64,000 bases of DNA. It comes from Daedaleopsis sinensis. Lineage: Eukaryota; Basidiomycota; Agaricomycetes; Polyporales; Polyporaceae. A program made the translations under genes and the position numbers. Location of the stretch: positions 868,001 to 932,000 of the forward strand of contig CM066304.1 in the NCBI GenBank assembly GCA_033807695.1, given 5' to 3'. Positions 42,910 to 64,000 of the stretch are shown piece by piece; position 1 is the first letter of the stretch; each line of letters begins with the position of its first letter. The notes beneath the pieces were generated by a model, which searched no databases, had not been told where the DNA came from, and worked only from the letters and a program-made list of their open reading frames with translations.

Positions 42910-44350
42910 TAGATGTGCCAAAGCCCCACTGCAGTAGGCCAGTTGGCCTTATTAGAGATGCTAGACTCCAAGTACGCTTACCCAATCGAGGGGTCCAGAG
43001 CCCCACTGTAATACTCTGATTGGGGCCCATGTACCCACCTATTTTGATTACCCTAATTTGAATTGAACTACTACCTGGATTGTTTCTATTCATTGATTAT
43101 TGATTATTACTACTGGTGAGGATTCACTTTGTAGCAGTTACCAATTGGATACTGACAGCACCCCTATAGTTGGTCAATCAGATGTCCATAACACCACTGT
43201 GGTCCACCAATTGAGACATAGTATTCTATATTAGCTGGTAACAGGCACTGTATTTACCCGATTGAGCGTTCATACTGCCTCCACAGTGCACCAATCCGGG
43301 GTATATACAAGCACTCTGGTCTGCTGATTGAGATCCGGTTTTTTCCCGTCGCCGCACTCCCCAAGCACTGTTACTCCTCAGAATGAACAAAATGCGGAGT
43401 AAATCATGCTGCATGTATGCACAGTTGCCGGTCGGAACATTGTAGGTAACGACCACTGTACTCGCCCAATCGAGCGCACATACCGCCTCTGTAGTGCACC
43501 AATCCGGGGTATATACAAGCACTCTGGTCTGCTGATTGAGATCCGGTTTTTTCCCGTCGCCGCACTCCCCAAGCACTGTTACTCCTCAGAATGAACAAAA
43601 TGCGGAGTAAATCATGCTGCATGTATGCACAGTTGCCGGTCGGAACATTGTAGGTAACGACCACTGTACTCGCCCAATCGAGCGCACATACCGCCTCTGT
43701 AGTGCACCAATCCGGGGTATATACAAGCACTCTGGTCTGCTGATTGAGATCCGGTTTTTTCCCGTCGCCGCACTCCCCAAGCACTGTTACTCCTCAGAAT
43801 GAACAAAATGCGGAGTAAATCATGCTGCATGTATGCACAGTTGCCGGTCGGAACATTGTAGGTAACGACCACTGTACTCGCCCAATCGAGCGCACATACC
43901 GCCTCTGTAGTGCACCAATCCGGGGTATATACAAGCACTCTGGTCTGCTGATTGAGATCCGGTTTTTTCCCGTCGCCGCACTCCCCAAAAACTGTTACTC
44001 CTCAGAAACAATAAAATACGGAGTAAATCATGCTGCATGTATGCACAGTTGCCGGTCGGAACATTGTAGGTAACGACCACTGTACTCGCCCAATCGAGCG
44101 CACATACCGCCTCTGTAGTGCACCAATCCGGGGTATATATCCGCAGTGGTGTCCCAATTGAGACCAGTCTTTCATCTGCACTCGTAGTGTAACCTCTGTT
44201 TGCAGCTAAACTCTATAAAATAGACACTAAATCATGCTAAAAGTATGCACAATCACTGGTTGGAAGAAGGTCTGTAATTACCACTGCACTCACCCAATTG
44301 CGCGAACATAGCCCTTCCTCAGTGCGCGAAGCAGAGGTATGTACAGCCAC
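42910..44350. repeat. Satellite array with 208-bp unit
   Basis: The anchor TCCGGGGTATATA recurs at 43296, 43503, 43711, 43919 and 44127: three exact 208-bp steps after one of 207. Central copies are nearly identical; flanks (42910-43240 and 44140-44350) are diverged monomers with CCAATTGAG and CACTGT words. Each unit contains two TCCGG motifs, the same word that fills the neighbouring KDZ block. Overlapping 60-126-codon frames inside the array repeat with the unit and are not genes. Confidence 0.92.
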
Positions 44351-44539
44351 TATAGTGTGCCAATTGAGATCAGCTGGTCCACAGTTTACACGTACCCTCT
44401 GTCGTCAGTCTACCTTCCAGTCCCCCATATGAACACCATGTCGGCATCACTTTCACTAGTCTTTGTTGACCGGGCTCACTGCACAGGCCGCCAGGCGCGA
44501 AGGCGACCTGTACTGAACTGTAGGTGAATCCCAGCGGAG

Positions 44540-44820
44540 ATTATGTCCGACGGACATCATAGTCCGACGGACTTCACAGTCCGACGGACAACATCAGCCA
44601 CCCCACGGACATCATAGTCCGACGGACTTCAACATCAGCCACCCCCAGGTGGAGGATACGATCCCCCGCTCTGCGTGCATCCCACTTTTGATGCTCGCCG
44701 ACCAGCCCTGATGACTGGCTGTCATTACCTCAAGCGGATATAACGGATGTCGGTCGTTAACTCTGGCGGACATTAAGTCCACCGGACATTGAGTCCGATA
44801 GATGTCAATGTCCGTCACCC
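44540..44820. repeat. Array of palindromic GTCCGACGGAC motifs
   Basis: At least five copies of GTCCGACGGAC or one-base variants between 44548 and 44630, with further TCCGA/CGGAC words at 44777-44812. The motif is an 11-bp odd palindrome containing CCG-A-CGG. Confidence 0.85.
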
Positions 44821-45016
44821 CTCAAGCCCAGCGTGCCACCTGATAACTTTGCGCCTGACATTCTTGTTGTCTTATCCCTCATGCAGGATGACGTTCAAGT
44901 GGTTCAACATGCTATCAGCGCCGCACAAGGAGAAATACATGAAGGACCTGTGTTACGAGTCCACATGGCTCAATATCTAGCTGGACTTCCCCTGGGTGTC
45001 CTATCACGCACCTAAC

Positions 45017-45791
45017 TCAGATCGCCTCCTCTTCACGCGAGGGAATGTTGTTGTTCGGGGTAGAGGATCGTTTTGTAACCACTTCGATGCGTCTGCGGTG
45101 CTCGGCCTCGTCACCTAGGTGGGCGCGTAGCCGTTGCCTTTGCGTACTGGCAGTGTGGATAATCGACTCTGACAAGCAGCGGAGCTGACAGATGTCTGAG
45201 ACTGACACGTTCATGGGTCGGGGCTTGCAGATTATCATCAGCAGAGAACTAAAGTAACCAGTGCTTTAATGTGAACGTACCACAGCACTTGGCGGTGATG
45301 TCCACCAGGCAGGATAGCTCACGTCATCAGACGTGGCAGATGACCACTCCCACCATTTAGGCATTGGCTGCGGTGTGCTGCAGTAGTTGGGCAAAGTGGA
45401 AAGGTAGGCTGCCATTCGGCCGCGGTTCAATCCATTGAAGTCCACTGAAATGGCCAGACCTTTGAACTTCGTCGCACGCACACAGTCTACCAGCGGCCGG
45501 CACAACATCTCCAAATTGACGGGTTGATTTTTGACGGCGGCAACCATTGTTAGAATGCCCAGGGAGCTACAGGCATTCCACTGTTGGGCATTACCTGTCA
45601 AACTGATACCATTGCTGAAGTTGACTACTTACGACCTCGTATGACAACCCTGCCATCCATCTCCTCTTTGTTATTGAGTCTGCCGGCCGGGGTAGAGATA
45701 CACAGGCGGTTGCGATTCGCCACCCAATGATTTCGGACTCGACTTCCATGGCTTCAGCAAGAGTATCCGGCAGGGTGAACGAGGTGGTCAT
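45017..45791 (-). CDS. Element accessory protein A (unknown family)
   Basis: Three exons close in phase: 45791-45633, 45580-45281, 45223-45017 (221 aa). No known domain. It is a paralog of 46300-47088: both begin M-T/S-x-F-T-x-P-[DE]-T-x-A-x-A-M, share RWMAGLSYEVV / RWRAGLAQEVV, a FKGLAISVD / FHGLAISVN block, PKWWEWS / PRWWTWA and PAWWTSPPSAV / PSWWVTPPAAI, then a HTA-x-x-Q-containing tail. Exon 1 is 159 nt in both. The aromatic WW pairs suggest a folded domain. Located left of the transposase on the same strand. Confidence 0.65.
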
Positions 45792-45829
45792 GGTGCGTGA
45801 GTGAGTTATGCTTGGGGTTCACCGCAACT

Positions 45830-46180
45830 CAGGCGCTGTCTGCTGGAGTACACGTGGCTTTGGTAACCGGGCCTGTGAAAAGCCCATCGGAGTTCCCACC
45901 AGGAATGCCCGCCGGACTTTGTAGTGAAAAGCCCATCGGACTTCTCACCAGGAATGCCCGCCGGACTTTGTATCACCGGTAACAACCATGGACTTCATTA
46001 ACAGGGTTTCCCTATACATCTGGATGCTAGGGGGTTCATTGGACTTTGCATGCAGCATGCCTCGAGAGCGGACTTTTGTAGTCATGTCCGACGGACTTTG
46101 GAGCTCATGTCCGACGGACCTTGGAGGTCATGTCCGACGGACTTTGGTGGGCAATGCACTCTGGACTTTGTAGGATCTTC
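45830..46180. repeat. Intergenic CGGACTTT repeats
   Basis: Two 47-50-nt direct copies (AAAGCCCATCGGA...CCCGCCGGACTTTGTA) between 45877 and 45972, then three units of about 25 nt with CATGTCCGACGGACTTTGG between 46083 and 46150. Confidence 0.8.
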
Positions 46181-46299
46181 TCACTGGTGCGCTGACGGCT
46201 GGACTTCATGAATGGTGTACCCCGTCTGAATACAGCTACATAGAGGTACTACTGAAGAGGATGGCTTCATCTGCCTGCATGCCACTGGCCGCAATTCTA

Positions 46300-47088
46300 T
46301 TACCGTCCGCCACCTCCCTGGGCCGGCTGCTGGGCAGCCTTTCCCGTACGAGGAGGGAGTGACCCGGAGGCCGCCAAAGTGGTCCTGTGATGTTGTCCCA
46401 ACTCCCGCGAGGCTTGCTCGCGGAGATCCTTCTCTTGTACCTCGGCAGTATGCACCACAGCTTCAGAGAAGCTGTAGAGGCGCATGATGTCGGCCACAGA
46501 AGTAGGCATTGGCCGGGCCTATCGGAGATGATAAGTGGTCGGACATGGGGCATAGTTAACACTTACAATAGCTGCGGGAGGGGTCACCCACCATGAGGGA
46601 AGATTCTTCTCCTCCACTTCCCCGGCAGCCCATGTCCACCAGCGAGGATAAGGGAAGGGAGCCGTGGAGTAGTCCGGGGATTTCTGAAGATATTTCTTCA
46701 TCGAAGATCGATCGATTGAGTCAATATTGACGGAGATGGCGAGCCCATGGAATTGCGAGACCCGAATGCATTCAAGGACAGGATCGGGGGGTCGGTTGAT
46801 ATCCACGAACTCGCCCTCAGGCTCTTCGGGAGACGCTATAGCGCAAAGGGCAAGGATACCAATACAGTTACTCGCATGCCACTAAGGCTGCATTAGAACT
46901 GTGAGGATGGCATGAGTAAAAGAACGTACCACTTCTTGTGCCAGCCCAGCCCTCCAACGCCAAATAGTCAGATTGTCCGGAGCTGCGGGGAAGGCGAGGA
47001 CAGCAGTGGCCATCCTCCACGCAATGATGGCCGCATCTTCATGCATGGCTTTCGCGACTGTTTCAGGAGGTGTAAATGGAGTTGACAT
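46300..47088 (-). CDS. Element accessory protein B, paralog of A
   Basis: Three exons: 47088-46930, 46881-46567, 46518-46300 (230 aa). Same architecture and exon-1 length as gene A at 45017-45791; about a third of positions agree by eye, so the duplication is not recent. Exon 2 holds NCIGILALCAIA, FHGLAISVNIDSIDRSSMKKYL and PRWWTWAAGE. Exon 3 holds VADIMRLYSFSEAVVHTAEVQEKDLREQA, likely helical. Function unknown. It lies between gene A and the KDZ transposase on the same strand. Confidence 0.65.
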
Positions 47089-47521
47089 GGCGAGATAATG
47101 CGCGTGTTCAAGGGGAGATGAGTGTGGAAGAGAAGTTTTCTTTTGCGGGCGCTTGTTCGTTCTGTGGAGTTAGGAGTGACATCCGGCAAGTCCGGTATCG
47201 CAGAACCCGGCAAAAAAAAACAATGTCCGGAAATATCTAATGTCCGGGGGCGATCCAGTGTCCGGGGCTAATCTAATATTCAGCAGGGTTCAGGATTTTC
47301 GGCCACCATTACTGCAATGAATGCCTTCTAGAGGCTGCTATAGATGTAAATGAAATGGTCTCAACAGTCTGGCCAGCTTCCATGAGAATAGATTTGTCCA
47401 GGCACATGAATGTATTCGTTCGGGCATTGGTATAAGTCCGAGAACACCAGCACTAGTGCCGATATTCATATAATTCCTCCACATGATGCGCGCACACTGC
47501 ACATGTCTACTAATCATATAA
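47089..47521. other. Intergenic with TCCGG words
   Basis: Promoter side of accessory gene B and 3' flank of the transposase. Four spaced words of the form AATGTCCGG / GTGTCCGGGG occur between 47170 and 47265, next to a run of nine A. Confidence 0.6.
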
Positions 47522-50500
47522 TCATACGAGAAGAATATCTGCTGGAGCCTTATGCTTCGCTTTGACTTGGGAGAAGAGTGTGTCAGCATGGGACCGGAGA
47601 CCATCCCAGAGCTCAGCTTGCCGTGCCGCAAAGGCCCGGTGCCCTGCTCGCACCTCCCGCTCGCCGCGCCTAATCCACTGCTTCCTCCATGTTTCCAAAG
47701 TGCAGACAGTACGTCCCATCTCCAGCCACACCAAAACAATCTCCTCTTCCCACCTGCTCTTGCGGGCATGAGCTCGAAGCCACACGACTCGGTACACTGC
47801 CAGGAGAGAGCTTGGTGAGGATAACCGGACATTGACCGCACTGACTCACTTTCAGCCATCCATTCGCTGTTATCTGTGTCCCCAGGCACATCAATGCTCC
47901 AGAACCATGGCAGATGCAAGTGGCGGACTCCGCGGACTCCCTGCTCGATGATAGCCGTGTTTGCCTTGAGGTCGGACTTCTCCAAAGTCCGGTAGCGCGC
48001 CCGGAGTTCATTGAGCGCCTCTAGCTCTTCTGCTTGGTCCACGGAGTAAAGAGCTTCGCACGCGGTCCAGGCAGTTGAGTAAACCCGGGCATTGTTGAGC
48101 ACATTGTTGTCGGCCAGATGGACGTCGTCAAAGCTCCGCAATCTTTGCCGATACGAAGTGGCTTTGCGAACTCCGTGGCGGAACAGGAAGGACTTGTATC
48201 CTACTGCAACCCGGACATTGTGAAGAGCATCGTTCATCTGGCCCACTCGTAGCTGTCTTTCGGTTTCAACCAGATCCATGAGTCCGTGTTGCCTGCAGAA
48301 TGAGACACCCAGACTAGATGGTAAGGCGATTCTCAACCGCTCAGGTACCACCGGTGAGCCAGGCTCGCTATCATCTCCATTTCTGTCTCGTTGGGCTGGG
48401 GGCCCTCCAGCGTTGTCGGGGCTGGGACCGTCTTCATCGATAGTGTCCCACTCCACTCCCATGGTAGAGAGATCGGGTGCGAGTGCCATCGCAGTTGAGA
48501 GAGTTCCGGTGTTGATATAAGTTGAAGCAGTGGAGTTGAACCGCTCAATGTCCTTGAGCAGCTTTGTTCGCATCTGCTCCACGGCCAGCTTGTCAGTCAT
48601 TGGACTGTGGGGGCGCACAGCCCGTGCTTTGGCGGCAATGGACAATCTGACATGGACATCAGCTAGTGTCCGAGGCTCGCGTTCCGGGTCACACTCACTT
48701 GGTCTCCTCAATTTTCAGTCCTTGTGCAATCCACGACGCAGCCCCTTTGAGCCTCCGATTGCTTTCATTCTCTTTGCGAGTCAGATCGTGCTGAATTTGA
48801 GCTCGCGTGGGTACTATAATCAGCAGTCAGCATGCAAGTTCACGTAGCCGGAGGCTTGAAGTCATTGGGCGTACGCTTTTTAGTCTCCAGCTCATAGACA
48901 TCCATGGACTTGATATCTGCATTCCGTCTGTCTGCAGCCTGCTTGGCTATGGCTTCCCATTCACGGCGAGTGCCTTCACCGACATTCTGACCAGCGTCTT
49001 TGAGAGCCTCTCTAGCAGGTTCGACTTCTGCACAAGCGACCCGCCATTTACGAGACAAGGCTGGGGCTATGACATTATCGGAATAAGCGCAGCACTCCTT
49101 CTGTAAGGCTAGCAGGTCAAATCACTTACCAATTCTCAGAAGCTTCATCCAGTTTGAGTCCTCCATGATATCATCGATAGATTCTTGCCGGTGGCCCGTG
49201 GTCATCCCGCGGGTGCTGCTCGAGATCTCGTTGGTGTTAATCCATAATGTCTCTAGGACGTCACCATCTTGAACACCAGCTCCGGGAATAAAATTGGGGG
49301 AGTAGCGAGCGTAGCACTCCCGGACGTGCCCGTGGACGTGAAATTGATCTATGCCGCCAGTAACCGTGAGCTCCGCGGGTTTGTGAAGTCCAGGACTAAG
49401 CTCGAAACGTTTTTCAAGGTGGATGGAGTAGTGGCACCAGATGTCGTAGAGGATGAGCATTAATAATAGCCCCATCAGAAACATTTGGATCTGAAAGAGG
49501 CAGTAGTCCATGTTGAGCTGCCTGTCCGGACATTGAAGACGAAGTCCGGAGTTGGACATAGTGATTCGGACATTGGTATGGAGTCCGGAGGACGGAGATT
49601 GTCAGCACAATACGTTCACTGATGAGCACTGCATTACGACGCACCCTTCACCTGCCTGGAAGTCCACCGTCGCATGGGGCACAAAGAAACCATGACGGCT
49701 GCAGGCTGCAGATCCTATACCGGTTGATTCCAAGGGCCCACGCTCAGAAGATGCACTCAGGATTGCTCGGTGGTCATTGCAGAGCAGTTGCTATAAAATA
49801 CGTTAACGCACGGTTCTTAATCATGTCACCGCAATAATATGCTAACCTGTCTGAACTTAACACCACTGCGAAGATGTTCTTTGTATGGAGCATCGGTCAC
49901 CATGAATCCATGTCCGTCGGCAAGGCGGACATCCATCTCCGGCCGCTTCATATGCTGATGTTGCGCGCTGAAGTTACCATCCAAAATGAAGCTCGCCATA
50001 TGCTTCCATCTGCAGGTACGTGAATGATATGTGGCTGCCGTGAACAGCAGTACTGCTTACCTGTCTTGATCCTGCTGCCAGCCCGGAGGAAGATTCAAGC
50101 CCGGGCGTGGACATGCCGGACAGGAGGTCACAAGACCGCCTGGGCGGATATCTGGCTCTCCTTGATATCCGACCCCATTCCGCTTGCGTGCTTTCAGGTT
50201 CCGCCACTGCCTAGAGACACGTAGCAGGTCGCGGTATCGATCCTAAGAAAAGAGGTTACCATTCAGTCATACACCGGTAACTTGAACGTGCAACGCACAG
50301 GCACCATATGCGGGAACACCTCATTAGTTACACGTCGTAACTTGTTGAAATAGTTCATCGTGGTGGTATGACATTCTTTGTTGGTGAGCAGGAAGTCATC
50401 CAGACCGCGCGCCGTGAAAACTGTCTTTGGACGCTTTGGTGTGGCAGGATAGAATCCCATCCGCAGCAACTGAATGTCCCTGTCTTCGCAACCGTCGCAT

Positions 50501-52113
50501 TCGCAAAACACGAATACAATCTCGTGCACGCCTGAGGTATCAATGACGACCATCATGGTAGATGTCCGGGCTGGACGGAAAGCGACAGGTTCAGGGGTCC
50601 GAGTTATACGCCGCCGCGGAAGGTCTTCGCCCAAGTGAAGCAGAAAAGGACGGGTGGGTGCAGGCTCGGGGGGGTGGGACATGAGAGGACGCAGCACTTC
50701 TTCCCCCTGGCGTGGCATGGTCAATGCATCCTCAGGTTGGAGGATGTACGGGCTTTGATCGTACTCGGATTGGTCCTCAGGGTCTTCTTCGATGACGTCT
50801 TCCCATTCGGTATTTGCATCATCGGGATGAGCGAGAGGAATCCGGACTTCATTGTCCGGGGCAATGTCCGGGGGTGACTCTGCACGTCGCTTCCCCTTGC
50901 GCTGCAGTGAGCTGGTCCCAGCAGAGAGACTAGAGGGGGTCCCGGAACGGGCGGTACTCGCGCTATGAGGAAGTGAGAGTGAGTTGCTCTTGGTTGTCGG
51001 GGGTCCCAAGGAATGACCAGACACCAGTGCTGGAGTCCGCTTCTTAGACGGTGTGTCTCCGGTCTCGGAGTCGGATGCATCACTGCCTGTAGAGCGTCTA
51101 GTTGGAAGACGTCGAATAGCACGAGTGGGTGTACGATCCACGACTAGTGGCAGATAAATCAGATATTGGAATATGGGGACAAGGAGAAGACAAACCGGAA
51201 AAATTGGGACTGCTTGACTGTCCACTGTCAGTTCCAAGGGGTGAAGAGAGTGGTGGTGGAGTAGCGGCAGAGACAGTGTCGGGAGACAGGGGAGATGCTG
51301 GGGCGGTTTCGTGAACGGGCAACAGACTTGAAGGACAGTGTCCTCCACCATGTCCTAGGTGCACACGGACACCGACTGAGCGTAGCCATGCACCGGTGTA
51401 GTGAGTGCCGGTCCACATCTCAACACGATGAAATGGGAGCAGCTCATGCTGGCTTGCCAAGCATGAACAACACGACTTCGGCCACCCCAGACAGTCGAGA
51501 CACCGCCATAGCGCCGGACTTCCGCATTTGCACATTGCACTGTCTCCTCCGCTTTCCTGGTCATATAGAACGTGGAGATACGGCTCCCGATAATGCTTCT
51601 TCCATAATTTCTGATAGTCATTCGGTGTCTGGAAGAAATATGGATTAGAGTCACGGTTTCATTTGGGAGCGGGCCCGAAATCCGAATACAGGCCCCCGGA
51701 CTTCAACCCCCGGATAGGCCCCCGGACATCAACCCCCGGATTGCATCCCGGACTTCAACCCCGGACTTCAATCCCCAGACCGCATCCTGGACTTCAATCC
51801 CTGGACCGTATTCCGGACGGCACACGGGACTTTAACAGAGCGACACACGCACCCGACATGGCTTGTTCAGCAGATCGTCATCAAATGTGAAAGTGAATTC
51901 GTTTGCATCGCTGATCAATCCCCCAGGCCCGAATGGCAGAGGTTTCTGGGAAGGTGGAGTGCCTGCATTTTTCGAAGGTGTTGCTGGGGAGTGGATGACC
52001 GGGGTAGGGTCCTTGACTTTACTGAGTGTCCACTTTGTTCCTCGGCGAGTGGCTTTAGGAACTACTTCACGGAGAGTGAGTGGTTGATATTTGCTCAATC
52101 GTGGGCGGGCCAT
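47522..52113 (-). CDS. KDZ transposase (CxC2 type)
   Basis: Eleven exons close in phase: 52113-51853, 51628-51145, 51086-50299, 50242-50061, 50009-49847, 49790-49645, 49521-49130, 49066-48875, 48813-48699, 48646-47850, 47796-47522 (1264 aa). The CxC2 zinc domain starts at about residue 118 (C120, C122, C130, C133, C140, C143, then PFHRVEMW and LGHGG), is interrupted by about 240 Ser/acidic residues, and resumes at 426 (MMVVIDTSGVHE, CECDGC, LLRMGFYPAT). Then CPACPRPGLNLP, and a catalytic core with candidate D582 (LDGNFS), D701 (YDIWCHY) and E765 (LETLW), plus TGIGSAACSRHG and GHRQESIDD. The helical C-terminus with GDTDNSEWM is typical. A DNA cut-and-paste transposase; no disabling change seen. 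Intron 1 is filled with TCCGGGG repeats. Confidence 0.93.
51661..51852 (-). repeat. TCCGGGGG repeat array inside KDZ intron 1
   Basis: About nine units of 17-24 nt of the form TCCGGGGGTTGAAG (minus strand), including GATTGAAGTCC and GGGATGCAATCC variants. They fill most of a 224-nt intron, long for this window. Confidence 0.85.
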
Positions 52114-52161
52114 AGGGAGCACAGGAAGATTAATGGGTTCAGAAATCTTCCACTGCATCAT

Positions 52162-53497
52162 TTATATCGAGGGATAGTACGTAGTGGACATCCACGGCAC
52201 TCTGCCAATATCATGGTTGACATGAGGCGCATCAGTCATGAACCAGGAGTAACATAGTCTGTCGGGTTCCACCTTGGCCACCCCATGATGCACTAAGAAT
52301 CCACCCAATAGCACCCCCGACCCCGGGCCGTATGCCACCTGTATCCCGAGGTTCCGAAACACTATTGTACCCTCGCTGTAATCGCCAAGGGATATCAGGA
52401 GATCCAGCCACGTTGCCTGACCAGAAGTGTCCCGATGGAACGGGGTTTCGCGATTGCTGATGAGCTGCACTGCATTGAAAACAGCAGGCCAGATAGCCAG
52501 TGCTTCGGCGACAGCAGGATGTCCGGACATTGCATAGAGCGACTGGCGCCCCGCCCTGTAAAGATCAGGGTGCGCAACATATAGGATTGCACTCAGAAGT
52601 GCCCCGGACTCCTTCATTGTTCGTGCCCACTCGTGTGCTTGTTCGGAGCGCAATGTCCGACTGGGGGCCGGGTCAAAATTCCGGGTCTATTAGAATGTCA
52701 GCAAGGTAAGATACGATACCACGGCACGGGCATTGAAGCCCGGACACGGACTTGCCTTCCGACCAACAGAGTAGGCTCCGGGGGAGGCCAACCAACATCC
52801 AGGTGTCCAATTCTTTCCGTCGCTGTAGTATGTTGGAGCATCGCGCCAGCGAGTCGAAGGGTCTGTGACCGGTGCAGTCATTGATAGCTGCCCTTTGATA
52901 TGGCCGGTAGACTCAAGGATCTGTGCCTGAACGAGACGCAGTGAGCGCCATAGTGACTATTGAGTTATCACTCTGGACATACCTGACGTGATCTGGAGAG
53001 CAGGCCTGGCAATGCCCATGCTATGATATGCCCTGACGTATCCACCACCAATCCAGGCCTTGAGAGGACTGGGAACTCGTTCCTGCGGACCGCCGAGGCT
53101 TCACAGAAGGGAGGGAAAACATCGAGGAGCTCCTCTTCACGCTCCCAATTCAGGCCATGTTGCTTTTTTGTCATTGATGCCACAAGGTCCTCCACATCCC
53201 ACTCTATAGGAACTGACGAGACGCATCAGACAATCTGAGACCACTGCGCATAGGTTAGCAGGACGCACCCCGAAATGACCAGGCAGCGGCTAAAATCCGA
53301 GCCGCCCTGACAAGGTCTTTGTCCAAAGCCACGGACCAAGACTTGTTGCATGCTCTCCGAGCCCTGGACATCAGCGCCGGACTCTGTGGATTCTTCCTGG
53401 CCTCATCAAAGAGGCTTTTCAGACATACTGCCACGGAGTCCTGAAAGCGAAAAGTATCGTCCATCACTGAGATGGGTATGACCAAGCCACGACACAT
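52162..53497 (-). CDS. TET/JBP-family 2-oxoglutarate/Fe(II) dioxygenase
   Basis: Four exons close in phase: 53497-53269, 53212-52983, 52926-52756, 52686-52162 (384 aa). The double-stranded beta-helix core holds the iron ligands H294 and D296 (FHRDTSG) and H344 (VHHGV), with R353 (PDR) as likely 2-oxoglutarate ligand; LGDYSEGTIVF and YGPGSGVLL are typical of fungal TET/JBP. The upstream GLVVDTSGHIIAWALPGLL block is a fungal TET/JBP feature. Family members oxidise 5-methylcytosine or thymine in DNA. Intron 3 has a GC donor (AAG|GCAAGT). The ATG at 53497 is chosen; 53464 is an alternative. Its stop is 48 bp from the transposase start, same strand; upstream it faces gene 53721-57335. Confidence 0.9.
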
Positions 53498-53720
53498 CCT
53501 CGAGCCAGAGGTCAGTGTCCGATATTGGAACTCCGCATGATCATGCACCTCGTACCCGGCCCCAATGTTGCACTAGGCTGATAAAGTCCGGCGCCCATCA
53601 GAATGCCTGTAGGGCCTTGGAAACTCCTTGGAAACTCCCCGCTAAGGTATCGTGTTTTTATTCCCAAGTCGGACTCTCAGACTGCCCCCGGACTTCTGCC
53701 GCTCTCCGTCACGGACTACT
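53498..53720. promoter_or_regulatory. Divergent promoter between dioxygenase and HMG-like gene
   Basis: 223 bp separate the two opposed start codons. It contains CGGACTTCTGCCG, TCCGGCGCCC and CACGGACTACTATGTCCG words, so the element motif lies in the shared control region. No TATA box stands out. Confidence 0.5.
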
Positions 53721-56700
53721 ATGTCCGATCCTGCTGAGTTCACCAAAGCTGAGGTCGCTCTTCTGACTGACCTTGCCAACTCATGGGCCGAAAAAACTCG
53801 CAAGCAGAAGACCGCTGCTAAGGACGCCATGCTCGACCAGTTACTGGAGGCCCGTGGTGTTGCGCACGATCACAAGATCACCCGGACATACTTTGCGACG
53901 GTGCGTTGTCCGGTGTATCTGACTCAGTTGTCCTAGTCTCAGACTTGCCTGTGCCCAGAAAATCACCAGCTTCATCTCCGCATCGGGCACGAGCAACGAG
54001 ACTCGCCTGCCAAAGTCTGTGAAGACCACCTGGTCCGGATACGACGTCTTTTGTCATCTGGAAGACCCACAGTGCATTGAGCGCCGTGACGAGCTACTTC
54101 GTGAAGACCGCCACAAGCCTCGAAAGCGTGGCCAGAAACTCGCACCCATTGCCGCCATCAACATCGCACGCTCTGAGCTTTGGGGTGAGCTCTCCGATGA
54201 CGAGCAGCAGAAGTTTCAGACCATTGCCGACGCGTGGTCTGAGGAAGGACCAGATGAGAAGGATCGTGCCGGGTGCGTCAAATGTCCTTCCAGTGAACGC
54301 CGGGGGCTAACCTTGAACACTACAGCATTGCTGAGAGGCGAGTGCCACAATGGGCCAAGTCGGCAGTGGAGCTGGTGTGGAAGCAGGGAGGGGCTCTGAG
54401 TCTGTTTCTTTTCTACTTCAAGAATAGGAAGGGTGAGATTGTCACGGGGAGGTGAGTACTCTCCGCTAGTTGAAGCCCGGAAGTTGTCGAATCCCGGCCA
54501 TGTCGTCTACCGTCAGCTCCTGCTGTCCAGCTGCTCCGTCCGCTACCCGTTTGATCTAGGGTGGCTTCTCGATGCATGCAGTGACATGCATCTCCATGCT
54601 GGACTTCATGAGCCCCGTCCCGGACTTTATGGTTGCCGTCCCGGACTTTATGGTTGCCGTCCCGGACTTTATGGTTGTCGTCCCGGGCAACAGGTGATGT
54701 CTGGCGTGGACGTGAAGTCCGGGAGGGGGACATGGTGTCCGGCTGGTGTCCGGCTATCCTCCTAATGGTCTGCAACATGAGCTGACACTGCTCTTCTAGA
54801 ATCGACACTAGTCAGCTCTGGGATGCAGACTTGCCAAAGTTCATTGATTCGTACCCTGACTGGCAGGAGAACACCGTTGCGACCTTTGGTCGATGGTCGC
54901 AGGACATGTTACTTCCCGGAATGAATCCCGTGGCTGCGAAGCCTCAGCAGGCGGCGGCACGCCCGGTGGAGTTCGCTCGCTACGATGACGGATTACCTAT
55001 TCTTCCCTCTGAAGAGGATGGCGAGGTCATCAAAGACCTTGAACGCCAGAAGACAATCCTGCGTCAATTTGTCAACGACGTATACTGTATGCTTTAAGTT
55101 TCGTTTTCATTGTCCCCTACGGTTACTGAATCAGAATGCAGCGCGCGCCCATGGGACACCCAATACTCCTGTTCCTTGGAGTACCCTCGTGCAGAGGCCC
55201 GATGACTTTGTCGACCCTGACATCTGGCCCGAGGGCCAGCAGTACGTCCGGAACCATGAGCTCAGACAGCCTGGCCAGATGAAGAAGGACGTGGCTGCTC
55301 GCCTGTGGCGGTCTATACACGAGATTCAAAATCGAGACGGCAACTCTGGTTTCCGCTTCACGGGTGTTCTCAAAGGGAACGATGTCGTTCAAGCTGAGTA
55401 TCCCCCTTTCGAACCTGCCGCTGTCGGGAAGAAGGGGAAGAGGAAAGCGCGCACGAAGGCGATACAACTCCCTCCCGGTCTCTCTAACCTCGGCAAGAAG
55501 CGGACTGGGGAGGTCGGTCCAGGCGAGCAGGGCCCAGCTCTTCCACCTCGGCCAACGAGGAAGCGCAAGCGACGTGCACTCCCAGGCAAGACGAAGAAGA
55601 AGGCGAAGAAGTCCGGATCCGACGAGGAGGAGGAGGCGATGGAGAGTGGGGCCGAAGAGTCTCCGGACGATGAGCCGGAGCTCAGCGATACATCCGGCCC
55701 TGATGTTGGCGACGATGTGGAGAAGAACCTCGGGGACAACGAGCTATGGCGTGGAGAGCCGAGTCCGTTCAGAAACTCTCGCAGCCCAAGTCCCGTCGGA
55801 CCTGAAGTCCGGAAGTCGCAACCCAAGCCCCGCCCAGCCCACAAGACTGTCGCTGACTATGTCCGCATGACTGCCGCTGTGGCCATTCCACCTCCATCCC
55901 ATGATGTTGAAGCCGCCAAGTACAAGAAACCGAATTGGGTGGATGATGATTCCAAGGTGTTTCCATATCTCTGGGCTTTGGGAGCAGAGCCCGAGTATCA
56001 ACGTCTTCTAGTCTCCTGGCGCCACCTAGTAAGCCGTCTCAGAACGGTTGTGTGTTGTCTAATGCTGACATGTAGCAGTTGCAGCGACGTGCCGACATCG
56101 AACCTCAGCTGCCAGTGTCCTGGGCGACTTGGGATTACGTCGAGGTGTCCTGCCCGCGCGCTGTTCACCGGGACGCCAAGAGATGGGACAATTTCTTGAG
56201 CTGGATCATCGAAAACTGCCCTCAGAAAGGCTCTTCGGACACCGATGTGCAGAGGTGGTTCCTAGCCGCAGGCATGGCTATCCGTGACACTCACATGTCC
56301 ATTGGACTCGAGGACGATGAGCCTGTTCCACATGGTGGAGCTGAATACCTCCGGCACAGTCCAGCAGAGGTGGAGGCACATGTGAACAAGATCCTTGAGC
56401 CGCACGCAGCCACAGCGCATCATGCTCTTCCTGACCCCACATCCGCCATGCATTCACCTTCATCCGTGCCGGGAGAGGGCTCAGGAGTTCCTCAGGGATC
56501 GAAGACCGGGAGCAGGTTGAAGTCCGGCGAGGGACCGAAGTCCGGCGAGGGTTCGAAGTCCGGGCCGGTGTCGAAGTCCGGGCCGGTGTCGAAGTCCGGG
56601 CAGGTGTCGAAGTCCGGGCAGGTGTCGAAGTCCGGGCAAGGGTCGAAGTCCGGATCGAAATCCACTTCGGAGAAGACTGCATCGCAGGTTGAGCGAGGGA

Positions 56701-57335
56701 GAGTTATTGTCAAGGCACCCCGTGGTCGGCCACCGGGAGTTCCTGCCAAGGAGCTTCAGGTCCAAGCCTCGGACCGTGGAGATGAGTCGGACAGCTCTGT
56801 CAAAGAGGTTGAGGACGTTGTCATGGGTGATGGGACCTCGGACGACCCCTCCAAGAGCATACTGCCCAACAGCCTGGCTAAAGCCCGCTCCATGACCCCC
56901 TTCGTTCTACTCCCCATGCGTAAGAAGCACGAGGAATCTTTTAAGCAGCAGACAGCGGACCTGGAAGATCAGTCTGGGAGCATGGCGGATGACGAACCTG
57001 ATACTGGTATGGACCCCCAGTTAGGAAAGGACAAGGGCAAGGCAGTGGTCAGAACCAGAGCAATGACCGCCCAACCCCAACCGCAGGAACTCAATGCACC
57101 TCATCACTCCCCTGATCCTCAGCCTGGCAGTTCTGGTATCGACAAACCCCGTGGTGACTTGGAGGCGATGGATGTAGATCCCGCTCACGAAGCGGGACCT
57201 AGTGGGGGTGACCAGGAAGGAGACAAGGCCGCTGCCAGGCGGGGACGTTCGCGTAAGCAACTTTCTGTGCCTCCTGAGCAGCTCAGACGTGGAACGAGGG
57301 CGCGTGTCCCTAGACACCCACATGAGCCGTATTAA
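53721..57335 (+). CDS. Element accessory protein with HMG-box-like segment
   Basis: Six exons close in phase: 53721-53900, 53959-54272, 54326-54451, 54800-55086, 55142-56028, 56076-57335 (1017 aa). Residues about 84-155 (WSGYDVFCHLED ... AINIARSELWGELSDDEQQKFQTIADAW) have the spacing of an HMG box; this is a by-eye call. Residues 180-300 look folded (SLFLFYFKNRKGE, WQENTVATFGRWSQDML). Then a Lys/Arg-rich, nuclear-signal-like block near 350-370, long acidic runs, and near 640-700 a tandem of KSG-containing units whose codons spell AAGTCCGG. The C-terminus ends RRGTRARVPRHPHEPY. Probably a nuclear DNA-associated partner of the transposase. Intron 3 is 348 nt and carries a 21-nt repeat array. 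Confidence 0.8.
54616..54690 (+). repeat. 21-nt tandem repeat in intron 3
   Basis: Units CGTCCCGGACTTTATGGTTG(C/T) start at 54616, 54637 and 54658 with a partial fourth at 54679. Each has CCCGGACTTT, a variant of the element word. Array lies inside the 348-nt intron. Confidence 0.9.
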
Positions 57336-57411
57336 CATGTTCGCTGCTTGACATGTACCCTTGATAGACGTGGAGGAAGAATGCATCTATGTGGCCGTTG
57401 TTTGCTCTCTT

Positions 57412-57620
57412 GATGTCCGTCCCTATGATGTCCGTCCCTATGATGTCCGTCCCTACGATGTCCGTCCCTACGATGTCCGTCCCTACGATGTCCGTCCCGA
57501 TGATGTCCGTCCCTATGATGTCTGCCCGATGATGTCCGTCCCTATGATGTCCGTCCCGATGATGTCCGTCCCTATAATGTCCGTCCCTATAATGTCCGTA
57601 CGGCTGATGTCCGTGTTGCT
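57412..57620 (+). repeat. 15-nt GATGTCCGTCCCTAT tandem array
   Basis: About thirteen units, mostly 15 nt with a few of 12, between the convergent ends of two element genes. The frame reading DVRPYDVRPY is a by-product. Confidence 0.92.
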
Positions 57621-57968
57621 GATAAGCTTGGGCACAGCTCAACTATCAGGTCAACGGCTTATATTCTGAGTGCCTGACATACGTGATAAAATATAGATTT
57701 CCCGGGTGTCAGTGAGCTTGGAATCATGGAATCTATTTCTCGGAGTTTAATGTCCGGGGCGGACTTAAACCAGTTACCATTGGGGATCAGTGGCTTCACT
57801 GGAGTTCGCTTGCTGTCGGCATATTTACCAATAAATAGGCAATGAGCACACAGTCAGATGGTTCGACAACGTATACAAATATGCATTGAAATAGTCCATC
57901 ACGAAAACAAGCAGGTAATACATGAGGGCTGCAGACAGCGCGACAGTGTCCAAGTCCACGAGAGAGCA
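57621..57968. other. Convergent 3' flanks of two element genes
   Basis: About 350 bp, moderately AT-rich, with one AATGTCCGGGGCGGACTT motif near 57750. No coding region. Confidence 0.5.
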
Positions 57969-60900
57969 TCACTCCGACATGTCCATCTCTGCCTCTCCCT
58001 CGGGCACTTCACCGTCCTCAACCTCGCCCTCTGTGACGTCCTCCTCTTGCATCTGAGTGGCAGTATCATTGCGTTGCTCAGCGGACAGGTCGCCGCCTTC
58101 GTCCGAGACCTCTGTGGGCAGAGTCCGAGACCCGCTCAACTCAGTCTCTGAGGTGACAATGGACAGGGTTAAAAGCTTACCAGTCATGGGATCCTCCACT
58201 GCGGCGGCCCCAGTGGAGGTGCAATCCACATCATCCTCGCCTGGCACGCTGCTACCCCGCTCATTGGATGCTTGTGAGCCGATGTTGTTGACCTGAGCAC
58301 CTAGGACGTCGGTCTCCACAGCTGCCTCTTTGTCGTCGCTCCTGGAGGCATGGTCGTCAGCCTTGGAGATGGGGTCATCCGTGTTCGAGACGAGATTGGT
58401 GGAGACGGGGGGCTGGTCACCGGACTTCAAGGCGGGATTGTCGGACTTCGACGTGGATTCGTCGGACTTCGAGACGGAGTCCTCAGATATTGAGGCCGGA
58501 TTCAAGGCACGGTCGGTCGATGAGACTGCGACCAGCGCAACTTCCCTCCTGGCTTCAGAGTTCACATGCGGGAGGGTAAGATCACCGGAACCAAGAGGTG
58601 GGATGACTGTCGTACCTATGCCGGACATTGTTGACGATCCGGACATTGTCGACGACCCGATGAGGGCGGTGTCCGCCATCTCAGATTGAACTGGATGGCC
58701 CACGGCATGGCTCGACGTGGTGTCTTGCATCTCGTAGTCGATGCTGTCGTAGACTGAGTACGGGGTCGAGGACGATTGGGCTAGGCGGCGCGATCTGGCA
58801 TGACCGATTGGGCCACCCTGCGACCCTGCGTTGATTCCCAGTGATTGCTGAAGACGAGCAAAGGCGCCAGGCATGTAAGGCTGCTTGCTGTTGCTGACGA
58901 AAAATCCAGAGAGGGAAGTCTTCCTCTCATCGTCAGGGAATAGGTCGGAGTCGCTTTGAAGCAACTATAGGAGGCAATAGAGATGAGAGACCTGTGCATG
59001 AAGTCAAAACATGAATCACTCACCGAGGTCCTTAGGTCCGGGCCTAACTGCTTCACGATGTTCTCCAGCAACACCTTGTGGTCGTGCACGGTGTCCTCGA
59101 TGATGATCATGCGGTCTTCTACATCCTTGACACGAGCTTTGAGTGCGTCGAACTTGTCGGTGATGAACTTCTCCATCTCGTTGAACTTAGAAGTGACCGA
59201 CCGATCCAGCGTTGAGAGCTCGTGCATCACCCGAGTCTCTGCGTTGAGGAGATAGAAGTCCTCACCCTCCGGTGACAACTCGAGATCTCCTTCGGGAGCA
59301 TGGGGGAAAGGGAGTTCAAGTTCTTGAGAGGGGTCGTTCGACACGTTGGTGAGAGAGATGTCGTCGTGAATTGAACTATCTGCTTGGAACAAAAGAGGTA
59401 GCTGGTGTCAGTAATGTGAAGTCCGAGGGATGGAGTCCGAATGAAGTCCGAGGTATGAAGTCCGTGAACCCGTACCTCTCCGATGCCCATAGGTCTTGAC
59501 CTGCGCAGCAGCTTTGCGCTGAGCCATGACAGCTTGCACTGTAGGAACAAGAACCCAGGGTCCTGGTCAGCGAGTGAGAGGTCTGCGCAGATGAGCGAAA
59601 AGGAGAGTACGGACTCTGTTCGGGAGGAACACGAACGGCTGCCCGAGTTCCACCAGCCGTCGGCCCTTCTGTCCTACCTTGCTTGGGTGCCTCATTACCA
59701 CCTGCGCGAGTAGAGGCACGCGTACGCTTGGCTGGTGGGGCATCTGGACTGTCGGTCACGCGCGCACGCTTCTTCTCCTCAGTCATGACCTTTGCGGACT
59801 TCGGCGGTTTCTCGGACTTTGGCCCGGGCTTTGGCTCCCGGGATGCGGACGGACCGGGTTTCAAACCTGCTGGGCCGGGCTTGGAGCCTGAGGCCTTTGG
59901 AGGGCCGGCGGTCCTCCTCGCAGTAAGCTTCTTTGGGGGAGCGGCGGCAGTGGATTTGGAGGAGGGGGCAATGGAGGACGCCGTCCTGGATGACGAGGCC
60001 TTGGGCTTCTGCTCCTCATCAATGTCAGAGCTGGACTCCTCATCTGCGTTGTCGTGGGGGAAGGAAGTGACGGCATTGGCCCTGTCTCTGCGAGCGAGCT
60101 TCTTGAAGGCAGAAGTAAAGGCCTTGGGGGGGGCATAGTCGGTTCGGGTGACGAAGCTCGGCAGTCCCTCCTGCGGGTGGGTTGATTGCTCAGTCGCAGT
60201 GGACACCCACCTCCAGACTATGTACGCCTCTTGAAGGCGGGACCATCCCTTCGGCTCCCCTGGCGCAGGGGCAACTGCACGGACTGGCTGCCTGACACGA
60301 AACGAGCACTTGATGGCCTTCAACTTGCACGCGAGACACGTCACTCCTCGTACAAACTGTACAACGCACCGACGTCCCATCTCATTGCACTCGTGGCACG
60401 AAATACGCTGAAAGGAGAGATAAGTAAGCTCTGCGAAATATTTGAGGTGACATACCATCTCAATGCCCTCTTTGCGCAATCCCCAATCCTTCTTCCGCCA
60501 TGGGACCACCTTCACGTTCTCGTTCTTGAACTGGAAGGGCGGGAGGGTATCGGTATCCTCACTGCCAGACGTACCGGACTCTTCAGACTCCTCGGACGCT
60601 GCCTCGGGCTCCTCAGATTGGAGACGAGCTTTCCCCTTGTCTTTCCGGGGAGTTGCCACTGGCTTCTCGGATGTCTTTGCACGATCGGACTTTGTCTTCG
60701 CGGGCTCGGACTTCGTGGCCACGGACGCGGCTGTCGTTCTCGACTTTTCGTCAGCTGCAGGGGGCGCAACCTCACCAGTCTTGGACTTGAGTTTCTTCTT
60801 GCTCGGAGCGACGGGAGGGGGACTAGGCAGGGTGTTGTCTTGCTCGAGCTCATCGACGTGATCTGCCTGCGGCTCGTCCTCAGGTGCTTGAGAACTGGCA

Positions 60901-61421
60901 ATGGGCTGGGAATGAGGGGCAGGCTTGGGGACAGATGAGGGGTTCGGGTTTGATGAAGATGGAAGGGTTGAGGAGCTGGTAGAAGTGGAGGGACCGGATA
61001 CTATAGGCCTAGAGGTCAGTAATGTCCGGGGAGATGAGCATTTTTCGAACGCACTCTGAGGGTTCTCCCACCAACCCCTTCTAGCCGGCAATTGATATTC
61101 CTCCATTCGAATCCAGCAGCCCACTACCTCTGGGGCCAAGGCAGGGTCCAAACGTTCGATGTCGAAGTCGTTGGGGCAGGACCATGTCCGGTTGTGCTCG
61201 GCGACCCAAGAGAGAGCAAAGGGCGGAGCCAGAAAGTCGGACGTCTGGTCGCGGCTGTATATATCGAAGGCGGCTTGACCAAGATGCAAGAGGTCCTGTT
61301 GAAAACGGGCGATCCAAAGGGGGTTGTAAGGTGGATGCGGCCGGACTAGCCACGCGTGTTGGCAGATGGAAGAGCGGTCGTAAAGACGTTCGAGCAGATC
61401 ATCGAGTTGGTGGTGAGACAT
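57969..61421 (-). CDS. Element accessory protein with Zn(II)2Cys6-type cluster
   Basis: Five exons close in phase: 61421-60456, 60407-59615, 59538-59476, 59382-59024, 58964-57969 (1058 aa). Residues 1-125 look folded and tryptophan-rich (LDDLLERLYDRSS, WIRMEEYQLPARRGWWENP). At 326-356 the cysteines are spaced C-x2-C-x6-C-x9-C-x2-C-x6-C (SCHECNEMGRRC ... CLACKLKAIKC), the pattern of the fungal binuclear zinc cluster. That cluster binds CGG half-sites. Next come Lys/Pro-rich and Ser-rich linkers, a predicted coiled coil about 770-830 (KFNEMEKFITDKFDALKARV), and a Glu-rich acidic tail ending EAEMDMSE, suggestive of transcription activation. It diverges from 61758-63318. I infer an element-specific DNA-binding regulator. 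Confidence 0.82.
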
Positions 61422-61757
61422 AGCAACAGAGAGGAGTGAAGAGAACGAGGAACAAGCAGGGGAAGCAGAGGGCACTTGCAGTAGGATATGGTGGGGGATC
61501 AAGCAGGTCAAGAGTTGAAGTCCAGTCCAATATCCGCCCGGCGCCAAGCGCCAATATCCGAGCGCCGTGGGAAAGTCAATGCCGGACTTCGTCTTGTCAC
61601 TTGATCTCGGTGCGACCACCTCCCCAGTGACCACCACTACAGCCTTGGTGAGTAACTGACTCATTCACCGCCTAGGCTGCATGGAGCTCTGACTTACCAG
61701 GGTTCTGTGTTTTCTAGTGCGATTCAAAGTTTCAGATTCACAGTCCGGACTCTAACA
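61422..61757. promoter_or_regulatory. Divergent promoter between Zn-cluster gene and proline-rich gene
   Basis: 336 bp between opposed start codons. Contains CCAATATCC twice (61535 and 61553 area), ATGCCGGACTTCGTC and CAGTCCGGACTC words. The element motif again lies in a shared control region. Confidence 0.5.
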
Positions 61758-63318
61758 ATGCCCGCCAGAGCACAACACGTCCGGGTAAGCTCGGTTCCAA
61801 TTGCACTAACTACAGCTATAAAGTACTCACAACCTGAGATAGTTCACTGCGGTATCCCAGGAGGCCGACAGCTCTTATGAAGAGCCGGAGATTAGGGATT
61901 CAGTGAGCCCCGAGGTGGAGGACCTTCCCCAAGAGAAGCCCGGCAGAAATCCGGTCAATGTAAGTCTGCAAGCGCTCAACCATTCAATGTCCGAAGACTG
62001 ATCTATATTTCTACGATGTACGATGGTGCCACCACTGACCACAGCTTCAGCTATTTGACAGCTCAGTCGCTGGAGTCGCGAGTATGCTCCGTGTCCCGCC
62101 CATGGACAGGCGGCCTATGGGCGATGCGACGCAGCCTCGTTTGCCCCCTATGGTGCGGTCCCCTCCTGGTGCTTCCACTATACCCCACATCCCCCCCATG
62201 GTGCGTCGTACCGCTGCGCCAGCCAACAGCTCACTGCCTGGTATTCCACCCACGGCAGCTGCGGGTCCTCGTTTCCCGCGTATGACCCGGACTCCCGGAC
62301 TTCACCCGAATGTGTCGCACATCCCACCCATGACCCGGTCTGCTCAACTCAACGTGAGCACAGCCCATATTCCGCCCATAGAGAAACCTGCTGCCTCGAT
62401 GGACTCCTCCCAACGTCTCCCACCGATCAAGACCCCTTCCATCACAACTACAAACACGGCTCCATTCCCACCCATGACACGGTCTGCTAGACTCGACGTG
62501 ACTGCTTCCACCACCTCACAGAGTCTCCCGCGGATGGACGCTGTCTCTGGCAGTACACCCAATGTCCATCGTATCCCCTTGATGGAACGGATGCATCCCC
62601 CTACAACATCCTCGTCGCATATCCCACCAATGATCCGTCCTTCCGTGGTGAATTCGAGTACCAGTAGTCTGCGTCCTGCTCCCGCTGCTCCCGCTGCTCC
62701 CGCTGCTCCCGCTGCTCCCGCTGCTCCCGCTGCTCCCGCTGCTCCCGCTGCTCCTGCAGACCTGCATACGACCGCGCCACAGGTGTTCATCTCTGGTAAC
62801 ACAACTGCATCGACATCGCAGCCAGCGACATCTCACGAAGATGCTCCTCGCTATGCTACTCGGTCAACATCGGCTGCCGCAACAAAACATCGACACGATG
62901 CCGCTCGGGATTCGGCAGCGAAAGCGATTCGCCAGCAAAGGGCTAGAACTTCTAATGTCCGGTCCGGGACTATGACACTGCCTACGATCCAGGAGAGCGA
63001 AACATCCACCTCTGGATCGAACACGGATGGATACCCTCCCCCTCCACTGGTAATATTACTGCTATATGTACGCAAGGCAAACTGACAATGTCTTTGCAGA
63101 GAATGAGTACTCCACTCGAAGACTGGCGCCGATTGACTGGAGAATATCTTGTCGCAGGTGCCCAGCGTTGGAGTGTCATTGACGGTGATCGTGCAGCATG
63201 GCGTCGTGCTAGCGCGAATGCAGAAGGGATTATTGACGGTCTGAGACGTTTAAATGGTCAGGGCTGGGTAGACTACAATTTGTGGCTGATGGATCGAGTG
63301 CAGGGTGAAGATGCTTAG
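61758..63318 (+). CDS. Element accessory protein, proline-rich with PPM repeats
   Basis: Four exons close in phase: 61758-61784, 61843-61959, 62045-63049, 63100-63318 (455 aa). No known family. The long exon carries about fourteen spaced units of the form H-I-P-P-M-x-R or R-L-P-P-M, a 9-bp microsatellite coding PAA repeats, then a basic segment (KHRHDAARDSAAKAIRQQRAR). The last exon looks folded: EDWRRLTGEYLVAGAQRWSVIDGDRAAWRRASANAEG. The evenly spaced PPM-R motifs suggest a multivalent partner for another protein of the element; that is inference. It is transcribed away from the Zn-cluster gene. Confidence 0.7.
62675..62757 (+). repeat. 9-bp coding microsatellite
   Basis: About nine copies of CCCGCTGCT, in frame, coding Pro-Ala-Ala in the protein at 61758-63318. 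Confidence 0.95.
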
Positions 63319-63446
63319 AAGTCTTAAGCAATTAAACGGTTCATGTGGATGGTGATGTTATTGTAAGCCACTGTGATGTCCGCACAGCGTAGAGACAATG
63401 TCCGATATTAAATTGTCTGGTAAGTTTTCACGCTATACCTCACACA

Positions 63447-64000
63447 CCGGACATCGACACCGGACTTCTGACGACGGCTCTCGGACTTTGCCTCCACGGA
63501 GTCACAATGTCCGGTTCAACGCACCGAGCCCAGATTTCTGATCATTCTGATCATTCTGCTCGAATGCTAATTTCTATGCCTGATACAAGATTTTTGATCT
63601 TGTCGAACTCTTGCAACGCAGCGGGACTTGTCGAACTCTTGCAACGCAGCGGCCACCGGACTTCTGACGACGGCTCTCGGACTTTGCCTCCCCGGAGTCA
63701 CAATGTCCGGTTCAACGCACCGAGCCCAGATTTCTGATCATTCTGCCGGAATGCTAATTTCTATGCCTGATACAGGATTCTTGATCTTGTCGAACTCTTG
63801 CAACGCAGCGGCCACCGGACTTCTGACGACGGCTCTCGGACTTTGCCTCCCCGGAGTCACAATGTCCGGTTCAACGCACCGAGCCCAGATTTCTGATCAT
63901 TCTGATCATTCTGCTCAAATGCTAATTTCTATGCCTGAGACAAGATTTTTGATCTTGTGGAACTCTTGCAACGCAGCGGGACTTGTCGAACTCTTGCAAC
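63447..64000. repeat. Tandem array at the right edge of the window
   Basis: The anchor CGGACTTCTGACGACGG recurs at 63461, 63657 and 63816 (steps 196 and 159). Units carry ATGTCCGGTTCAACGC and a 28-nt sub-duplication GACTTGTCGAACTCTTGC in units 1 and 3. The array continues past the window end. Confidence 0.9.

Follow-up and report, generated by a model that had tools for sequence, protein, structure and literature searches.

Why fungal transposons carry a TET dioxygenase, and how such an enzyme could favour its own element and not every transposon, are questions raised by a block of DNA in the fungus Daedaleopsis sinensis (assembly GCA_033807695.1, contig CM066304.1, positions 868,001 to 932,000 of the forward strand). 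This whole stretch of 64,000 nucleotides is the window, and positions below are those of the window unless another contig is named. The block forms a single TET+ KDZ (Kyakuja-like) transposon of about 22 kb, here called element A, which extends about 2 kb past the window. A reading made from the letters alone (the sequence-only reading) had proposed that the element carries its own address sites, a protein that reads them and a demethylating enzyme. The address sites are borne out by a short word that occurs throughout the element, differs between element families and exceeds synonymous expectation in exons. The word and a candidate reader make both questions directly testable. We give about even chances to the full reading, in which the transposon would be selected in its DNA for a family-specific word over its whole length, read most probably by its own zinc-cluster protein, with anti-silencing as the outcome.

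A dispersed word in element A and other words in its relatives

The word that marks the block is the asymmetric A(A/T)GTCCG(G). A k-mer comparison of 44501-64000 with the 43.2 kb to the left gave 53 vs 3 occurrences of ATGTCCG and 54 vs 4 of AAGTCCG. Counted as A[AT]GTCCG or its complement CGGAC[AT]T, the word has 140 sites on both strands in 21,673 nt, covering 44543-64000 and continuing past the window to 66119, so the limit of 64000 assigned earlier to the block does not hold. This gives 6.46/kb, where the 73.2 kb of host DNA taken for comparison give 0.22/kb. Markov models of order 1, 2 and 3 built from A itself predict 6.0, 11.5 and 25.4 sites. The mean spacing is 155 bases and the largest gap 1,315 bp; every 1-kb bin of the block holds at least one site, and density drops sharply at both edges, with just 7 sites in 1-44000. 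An expectation-maximization (EM) motif model of A returned (C/T)(A/G)A(A/T)GTCCG(G) with 193 sites and 11.8 bits. The whole genome holds 188 pairs of the word that share a strand and lie 3-30 bp from each other, against 69 for a reversed control, and 56 of the 188 start in A (21.7 kb of 51.6 Mb).

The word occurs on both strands in arrays, exons, gaps between exons and the divergent gene-start regions (53584, 53689 and 61987). Tandem arrays, taken as Tandem Repeats Finder arrays plus a right-end array delimited by eye, hold 95 of the 140 sites; 45 lie elsewhere (2.48/kb), and 22 are in conserved exons. The earlier claim of a CCG/CGG motif running through all these compartments and rare outside the block is thus right for a short word. 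TCCGG, one of the motifs it named, is too weak a marker, being only 3-fold denser in A than in the same host DNA (7.52 vs 2.49/kb). The proposed count inside and outside the block accordingly separates the two for TCCGG and hardly at all for CCGNCGG (0.60 vs 0.48/kb). Nor is the proposed CCG-A-CGG palindrome the general site. GTCCGGAC occurs 3 times in A against 1.3 expected, and the 7 copies of GTCCGACGGAC in the block are confined to arrays at 44545-44627 and 46086-46142. Since GTCCGACGGAC is limited to two arrays and its genome-wide count is 48 vs 35 for a reversed control, the back-to-back palindrome is not a general address. A 208-bp satellite of 4.3 copies lies left of A at 43246-44139; it had been thought to bear the motif and holds no A[AT]GTCCG site.

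We compared A with eight further TET+ KDZ elements of the same genome, B (C8:189-209k), C (C3:3179-3199k), D (C2:4799-4816k), E (C3:4772-4789k), F (C4:3018-3035k), G (C5:4301-4319k), H (C3:189-206k) and I (C4:3434-3451k), fetched at 17-20 kb each, and with a tenth, J, at 5 kb. Elements A-J cover 10 of the 22 TET matches in the genome; nine of the remaining 12 share score and frame length with sampled ones, the match at C3:4.50M is close to H, and those at C8:554k/600k are outside the sample. CCG or its complement lies within every family word found, and the flanking bases differ. The own words are AWGTCCGG in A, AWGCCCGG in B and C, and CGGGCCCGCC in E and F. A[AT]GCCCG reaches 4.35/kb in B and 3.95 in C against 0.74 in A; A[AT]ACCCG stands at 1.90/kb in C and 1.70 in B, and A's own A[AT]GTCCG at 2.55/kb in B. 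D, E and F share GGGCCCG/GCCCGCC words; CGGGCCC reaches 3.12/kb in both E and F and 2.12/kb in D, and does not exceed 0.22/kb in any of A, B, C, G, H and I. H carries CA[CG]CCGG (2.59/kb) and [CT]ATCCGG (2.00/kb), I carries TTCCGGA (1.00/kb), G carries GAGCCGG (1.33/kb), and the 5 kb of J gave CGGAGC, AGTCCG and TTCCGG. For D, F and G the EM models gave no more than GC-rich noise, and the words of these three come from k-mer counts. Over the final 2-4 kb of the stretches fetched for B-F, word density falls to 0-2/kb, and in host DNA the family words stand at 0.10-0.33/kb. We read these words as addresses that each family carries for itself; on this reading a single genome would hold four or more distinct types of address (A; B/C; D/E/F; H).

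Host slices yielded no dispersed motif, the best host word (CCATCGCA, z 15.8) coming from a local array in 4 of 17 bins. In 7 distinct KDZ cores for which the listing shows no TET match in the vicinity (3.4-3.8 kb each), the top words lack the CCG core; CCGGCG ranks fourth (z 4.2) in one of them, L009, of which L010 is a copy. L009 and L010 also show weak, dispersed AACGTA/ACGTTC words, seen 8 times in 3.8 kb where 1.0 and 1.8 are expected, which may be another code or chance.

The word is under DNA-level constraint in exons

To compare exonic sites with synonymous expectation, we took as conserved exons the open reading frame (ORF) stretches alignable with other families and shuffled codons among identical amino acids within each element. 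In B, C, E and F some of these segments lie opposite to genes, on the antisense strand, and are partly kept in the shuffles; those of A look clean. The conserved exons of A hold 22 copies of its own word against 4.6 expected, a number reached in none of 300 shuffles. Three control words were not enriched there (z at most 1.1) and rose to z 2.3 at most in other elements. These results show that the word is under constraint at the DNA level in exons.

In seven of the nine families the excess does not depend on words chosen with exons in view. In a hold-out test, words were picked only outside conserved exons, and the sum of five words was then compared with 400 shuffles of the exons. The observed and expected sums were 33/9.1 for A, 59/12.0 for B, 47/12.9 for C, 30/11.8 for D, 77/15.4 for E, 74/23.9 for F and 17/5.9 for H. 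None of the 400 shuffles reached the observed value in any of these; six families pass, and the seventh, H, does so mainly through one word. For global synonymous shuffles the words were taken from whole-element counts in A-F and chosen after seeing the exons in G-I; the own word was in excess in all nine elements, with 0/300 shuffles in eight and 1/300 in I, and the post hoc words gave 24 vs 8.8 in G and 9 vs 1.9 in I. Shuffling within 40-codon blocks left 0/300 in A-G, 1 in H and 3 in I. The nine-by-nine table of elements by words, in which B's word set includes A's, departs from the diagonal only within the related groups A/B/C and D/E/F, with z at most 2.3 elsewhere off the diagonal.

Within the transposase, CxC2 and TET exons common to at least six families, the own word was observed and expected at 17/2.9 in A, 25/4.9 in B, 36/8.3 in C and 9/0.9 in E (0/500 shuffles each), and at 4/1.0 in D (8/500) and 4/0.9 in F (9/500). 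The HMG and zinc-cluster exons gave 0/500 in B, C and E. Exonic sites lie in sense and antisense orientation and in three phases. No excess was seen in 29 host ORFs (31 kb) or in 30 ORFs of the 7 TET-less KDZ loci (19 kb), the highest control value being z 1.8 for E's word in host ORFs.

Sites aligned between families are partly kept, and some carry the word class of the second family, class match being a wider criterion than identity. From A to B, identity holds at 6 of 16 aligned sites, where other CpG 7-mers give 3.8%, and a B-class word stands at 9 of the 16. Corresponding values are 13/59 vs 7.0% with 25 in class from B to C, 7/39 vs 3.6% with 8 in class from B to A, and 19/73 vs 7.0% with 26 in class from C to B. 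Identity reached 11/41 and 12/23 from E to F (vs 14.3%), and 9/25 and 10/19 from F to E (vs 13.8%). In the E/F nucleotide alignment, where samples are small, CGGGCCCG was unchanged at 9/14 places vs 3/15 for permuted two-CpG words and 17/48 for all permutations, and GCCCGCC at 14/19 vs 11/29. Words also switch in place between families, for example AAGTCCG/AAGCCCG and ATGTCCG/ATGCCCG. Protein repeats track the word as well: in A, tandem AAGTCCGG repeats at 56493-56653 (plus strand) in the open frame 56079-57335 are translated as K-S-G repeats, and K-P-E repeats in the zinc-cluster ORF of B read as AAGCCCGAG from three overlapping frames. The sites thus appear to evolve as a class.

A candidate reader and the rival explanations

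A zinc-cluster gene occupies the syntenic place in all nine TET+ elements A-I. In A it lies on the minus strand at 60054-61400, with conserved exon blocks at 60054-60467 and 61050-61400, and encodes at 60300-60398 the cluster C-x2-C-x6-C-x9-C-x2-C-x6-C, confirming the exact spacing noticed earlier. The Zn2Cys6 pattern is C-x2-C-x6-C-x5-12-C-x2-C-x6-8-C, and A-F and I match it. When the eight families A-H were aligned, the six cysteines and a G, W, H, P and P were invariant and the loops variable. B and C, which have similar words, share the loop CKDKACKC, where A has CKLKAIKC; C(T/S)x(K/R)QK(G/K)C is common to D, E and F, whose words are likewise similar. This parallel between loop likeness and word likeness is suggestive only. 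Zn2Cys6 proteins prefer CGG, and a constant CCG core with varying flanks is what a CGG reader of this class would predict; the zinc-cluster protein is therefore a plausible, and likely, reader of the word. Its sequence matched none of the solved Zn2Cys6 structures at E values up to 10, and the zinc domain (residues 395-535) had no homologue at E 1e-3 in a set of 5.8 billion proteins.

Phylogenies were compared with the words. In the transposase tree D groups with A-C and not with E and F (approximately unbiased (AU) test, p 0.017 against D+E+F), though D shares the E/F word. The TET and HMG trees are neutral (the worse tree has AU p 0.32 for TET and 0.25 for HMG). With six taxa and no outgroup, the zinc tree is not comparable with the others. 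A GC-rich word ancestral to D, E and F would explain the pattern without a swap of readers.

The second expected component, a dioxygenase of the type acting on 5-methylcytosine (5mC), is encoded by exons at 52168-53476 (minus strand). They match TET/JBP (PF12851) at 55.9 bits against a cut-off of 34.9 (ORF 52162-52653), with the HxD...H...R pattern present as HRD...HHGV...DR, in agreement with the sequence-only reading as to the presence of the enzyme. The word sites of A are CpGs within transposon DNA. The observed/expected (o/e) CpG ratio is 0.81-0.85 in A-C vs 1.10 in the host, and C5 DNA methylase (PF00145) has 5 matches in the genome; methylation is plausible because of this depletion and these matches. 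One PF00145 exon match lies at C5:956905-957285, about 23 kb right of A. The TET enzyme would likely be the effector at word-bearing DNA. The available text of a paper on oxidised methylcytosine (PMC8889193) mentions no sequence word at TET+ elements.

In the reading we prefer, selection would keep one short word over the entire element, coding sequence included, and sister elements would have shifted to other words around the common CCG core. The element's zinc-cluster protein would read the CCG/CGG core together with family-specific 5' bases, and would bring or keep an anti-silencing activity on its own DNA only. The simplest such activity would be the element's own TET dioxygenase; a chromatin factor is an alternative.

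Several observations weigh against this reading. For the reader, G and H have seven residues instead of six in the first loop; the Pfam Zn_clus profile (PF00172, cut-off 21) is not reached, with 15.4 bits in I, 15.2 in H and 10.7 in A; a single-sequence structure model of the cluster was too poor to use (predicted local distance difference test score, pLDDT, 47.1); and the phylogenies single out no protein as the one that the word tracks. For methylation, CpG o/e in D-I is 0.99-1.05, with little or no depletion. For constraint, G (3 vs 4.0) and I (5 vs 7.3) fail the hold-out, D passes in the pool with just one of five words at 0/400 singly, and H rests mainly on CGGATAC. The HMG and zinc-cluster exons are not significant in A (89/500) and D (110/500) and weak in F (29/500), and from A to C only 2/19 sites are identical vs a control of 4.6%, with 8 in C's class. 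The exons were moreover delimited from homologous ORFs and not from RNA, and all the elements come from a single genome (51.6 Mb, 24 contigs).

Other explanations have to be set beside these results. The word could be a binding site for the transposase, through its CxC clusters, or for an accessory protein, which would coat the element for excision or transposition with no relation to silencing. This account has in its favour that all nine elements encode a KDZ transposase (CxC2 was scored in A), that arrays stand near both ends as well as internally, and that other DNA transposons have subterminal motifs. We consider it unlikely, since the sites spread over 22 kb, exons included, and not just the ends, D has a transposase nearer to those of A-C yet carries the word of E and F, and the 7 distinct TET-less KDZ loci (3.4-3.8 kb each) have no such words. 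Also improbable is a reading in which the zinc-cluster protein binds the word as an ordinary activator, simply to transcribe the genes of the element, with exonic sites as a surplus from turnover. The gene's presence in all nine elements, the sites in divergent gene-start regions and the fit of a CCG core to Zn2Cys6 proteins would all agree with an activator, but the excess over synonymous expectation in transposase and TET exons and the partial conservation of sites at homologous places are more than promoter use alone needs.

A host defence factor might instead recognise the word, with elements unable to lose it. That the sites are CpGs in transposon DNA fits this idea, with nothing further in its favour; the words are family-specific and in part persist at homologous positions in exons, an element would be expected to lose such a target by selection, and several words would need several host readers, which makes it very improbable. 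An origin without function, by slippage of tandem repeats and mutation bias (such as CpG context), would account for the 95 of 140 sites in arrays but is scarcely credible, as the 45 others still stand at about 11 times the host density, exons exceed synonymous shuffles in several frames, and families with different words share one genome and hence one mutation regime.

The preferred reading, a word read by the element's own protein, has counterparts elsewhere. In maize, the En/Spm protein TnpA binds a repeated short word of its own element and is reported to reactivate and demethylate it; En/Spm is a CACTA element without TET, and its words are subterminal and not in exons. Gal4-type fungal Zn(II)2Cys6 factors have a like cysteine spacing, and their recognition of CGG would fit the CCG core; they differ in that the cluster here scores below the Pfam Zn_clus cut-off, is transposon-encoded and would have sites scattered by the hundred. 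Closest among known systems is VANDAL/VANC of Arabidopsis, in which, according to the available text of Hosaka et al. 2017 (PMC5735166) and Sasaki et al. 2023 (PMC10398659), an element protein reads a word of its own family and counteracts silencing. Those words (YAGTATTAY; AGTTGTCC/AGTTGTAC) accumulated through tandem repeats and lie outside coding sequence; they were absent from the coding probes tested in that work. Both systems have family-specific short words across the element that differ between related elements. VANDAL is, however, a plant element with a MULE (Mutator-like) transposase, whereas the elements here are fungal, use a KDZ transposase, have a TET dioxygenase on board and carry an exonic word in excess of synonymous expectation. 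VANC binding and demethylation have been demonstrated, according to the same text, and here they are predicted from sequence.

TET+ Kyakuja/KDZ elements of mushrooms share the KDZ transposase, CxC cluster and TET/JBP domain; the available text of their description (Kojima 2025, PMC12730594) contains no internal word, zinc-cluster gene or reader, and its main text nowhere mentions zinc, HMG, tandem repeats or subterminal sequence. It argues that each TET helps its own family, and speculates that the Agaricomycotina enzyme acts without target specificity. Our literature search, with most subscription papers outside its scope, found no publication that describes a word of this kind for KDZ elements. 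More tentatively, and with somewhat less than even confidence, we suggest that the word is a family barcode, kept against synonymous drift in transposase and dioxygenase exons, and read by a co-evolving zinc-cluster protein that steers TET to demethylate its own family only, a system evolved independently of VANDAL/VANC. If so, sequence-specific anti-silencing arose outside plants, protein-coding sequence can be constrained by a DNA address and not by the protein, and the families offer natural reader and word pairs for programmable 5mC erasure.

Genes, arrays and edges of element A

From left to right, element A comprises two left-end gene pieces, the KDZ transposase with CxC2, TET/JBP, an HMG-like gene, the zinc-cluster gene and the right-end array. 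A search of the genome with the zinc-cluster protein found no second copy of A, the next best matches being 39-41% identical. The left-end pieces (45089-47112, minus strand; 45089-45770 and 46354-47112) are conserved with B and C, resembling single-copy stretches there, and the one peptide scanned had no Pfam match above cut-off. The transposase region (47530-51649, minus strand), whose exons carry the word, matches KDZ (PF18758) at 106.4 bits against a cut-off of 26.6 (ORF 49122-49559) and CxC2 (PF18803) at 79.7 bits against 27 (ORF 50263-51351). Profile matches in the whole genome number 22 for TET and, counted exon by exon, 175 for KDZ. TET+ KDZ transposons with an HMG-like gene were reportedly described by Iyer in 2014. 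The HMG-box-like gene of A, with conserved exons downstream, occupies 53718-56450 on the plus strand, opposite to the transposase and TET genes, and scores 17.9 bits with HMG_box_2, below the cut-off of 22.4.

Tandem repeats with GTCCGACGGAC palindromes form the left-end array (44545-44645) and a 23-bp array (46069-46147). A 26/13-bp array of CCCGGACTT units (51687-51818) lies between the TET and transposase exons, and a 15-bp array of 13.7 TGATGTCCGTCCCTA units (57411-57614) between converging genes. The right-end array starts at 63370, runs through 64000 and on to about 65900 (limits by eye from the site list); its units, about 160-220 bp long, mostly hold CGGACTT twice and ATGTCCG once.

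Kyakuja termini have a 7-bp target-site duplication (TSD), CA..TG ends and no terminal inverted repeat (TIR), according to the available text of PMC12730594. No TIR was found at the edges of A. The 7-bp repeat AATCCCA at both edges (44527-44533 and 66207-66213) lacks CA..TG and is within chance, and a 6-bp CA..TG pair (44338-44343 and 66503-66508) is an alternative weak candidate for TSD and terminus, not better than chance. Just right of A's motif block, a 125-bp direct repeat lies at about 66470-66700.

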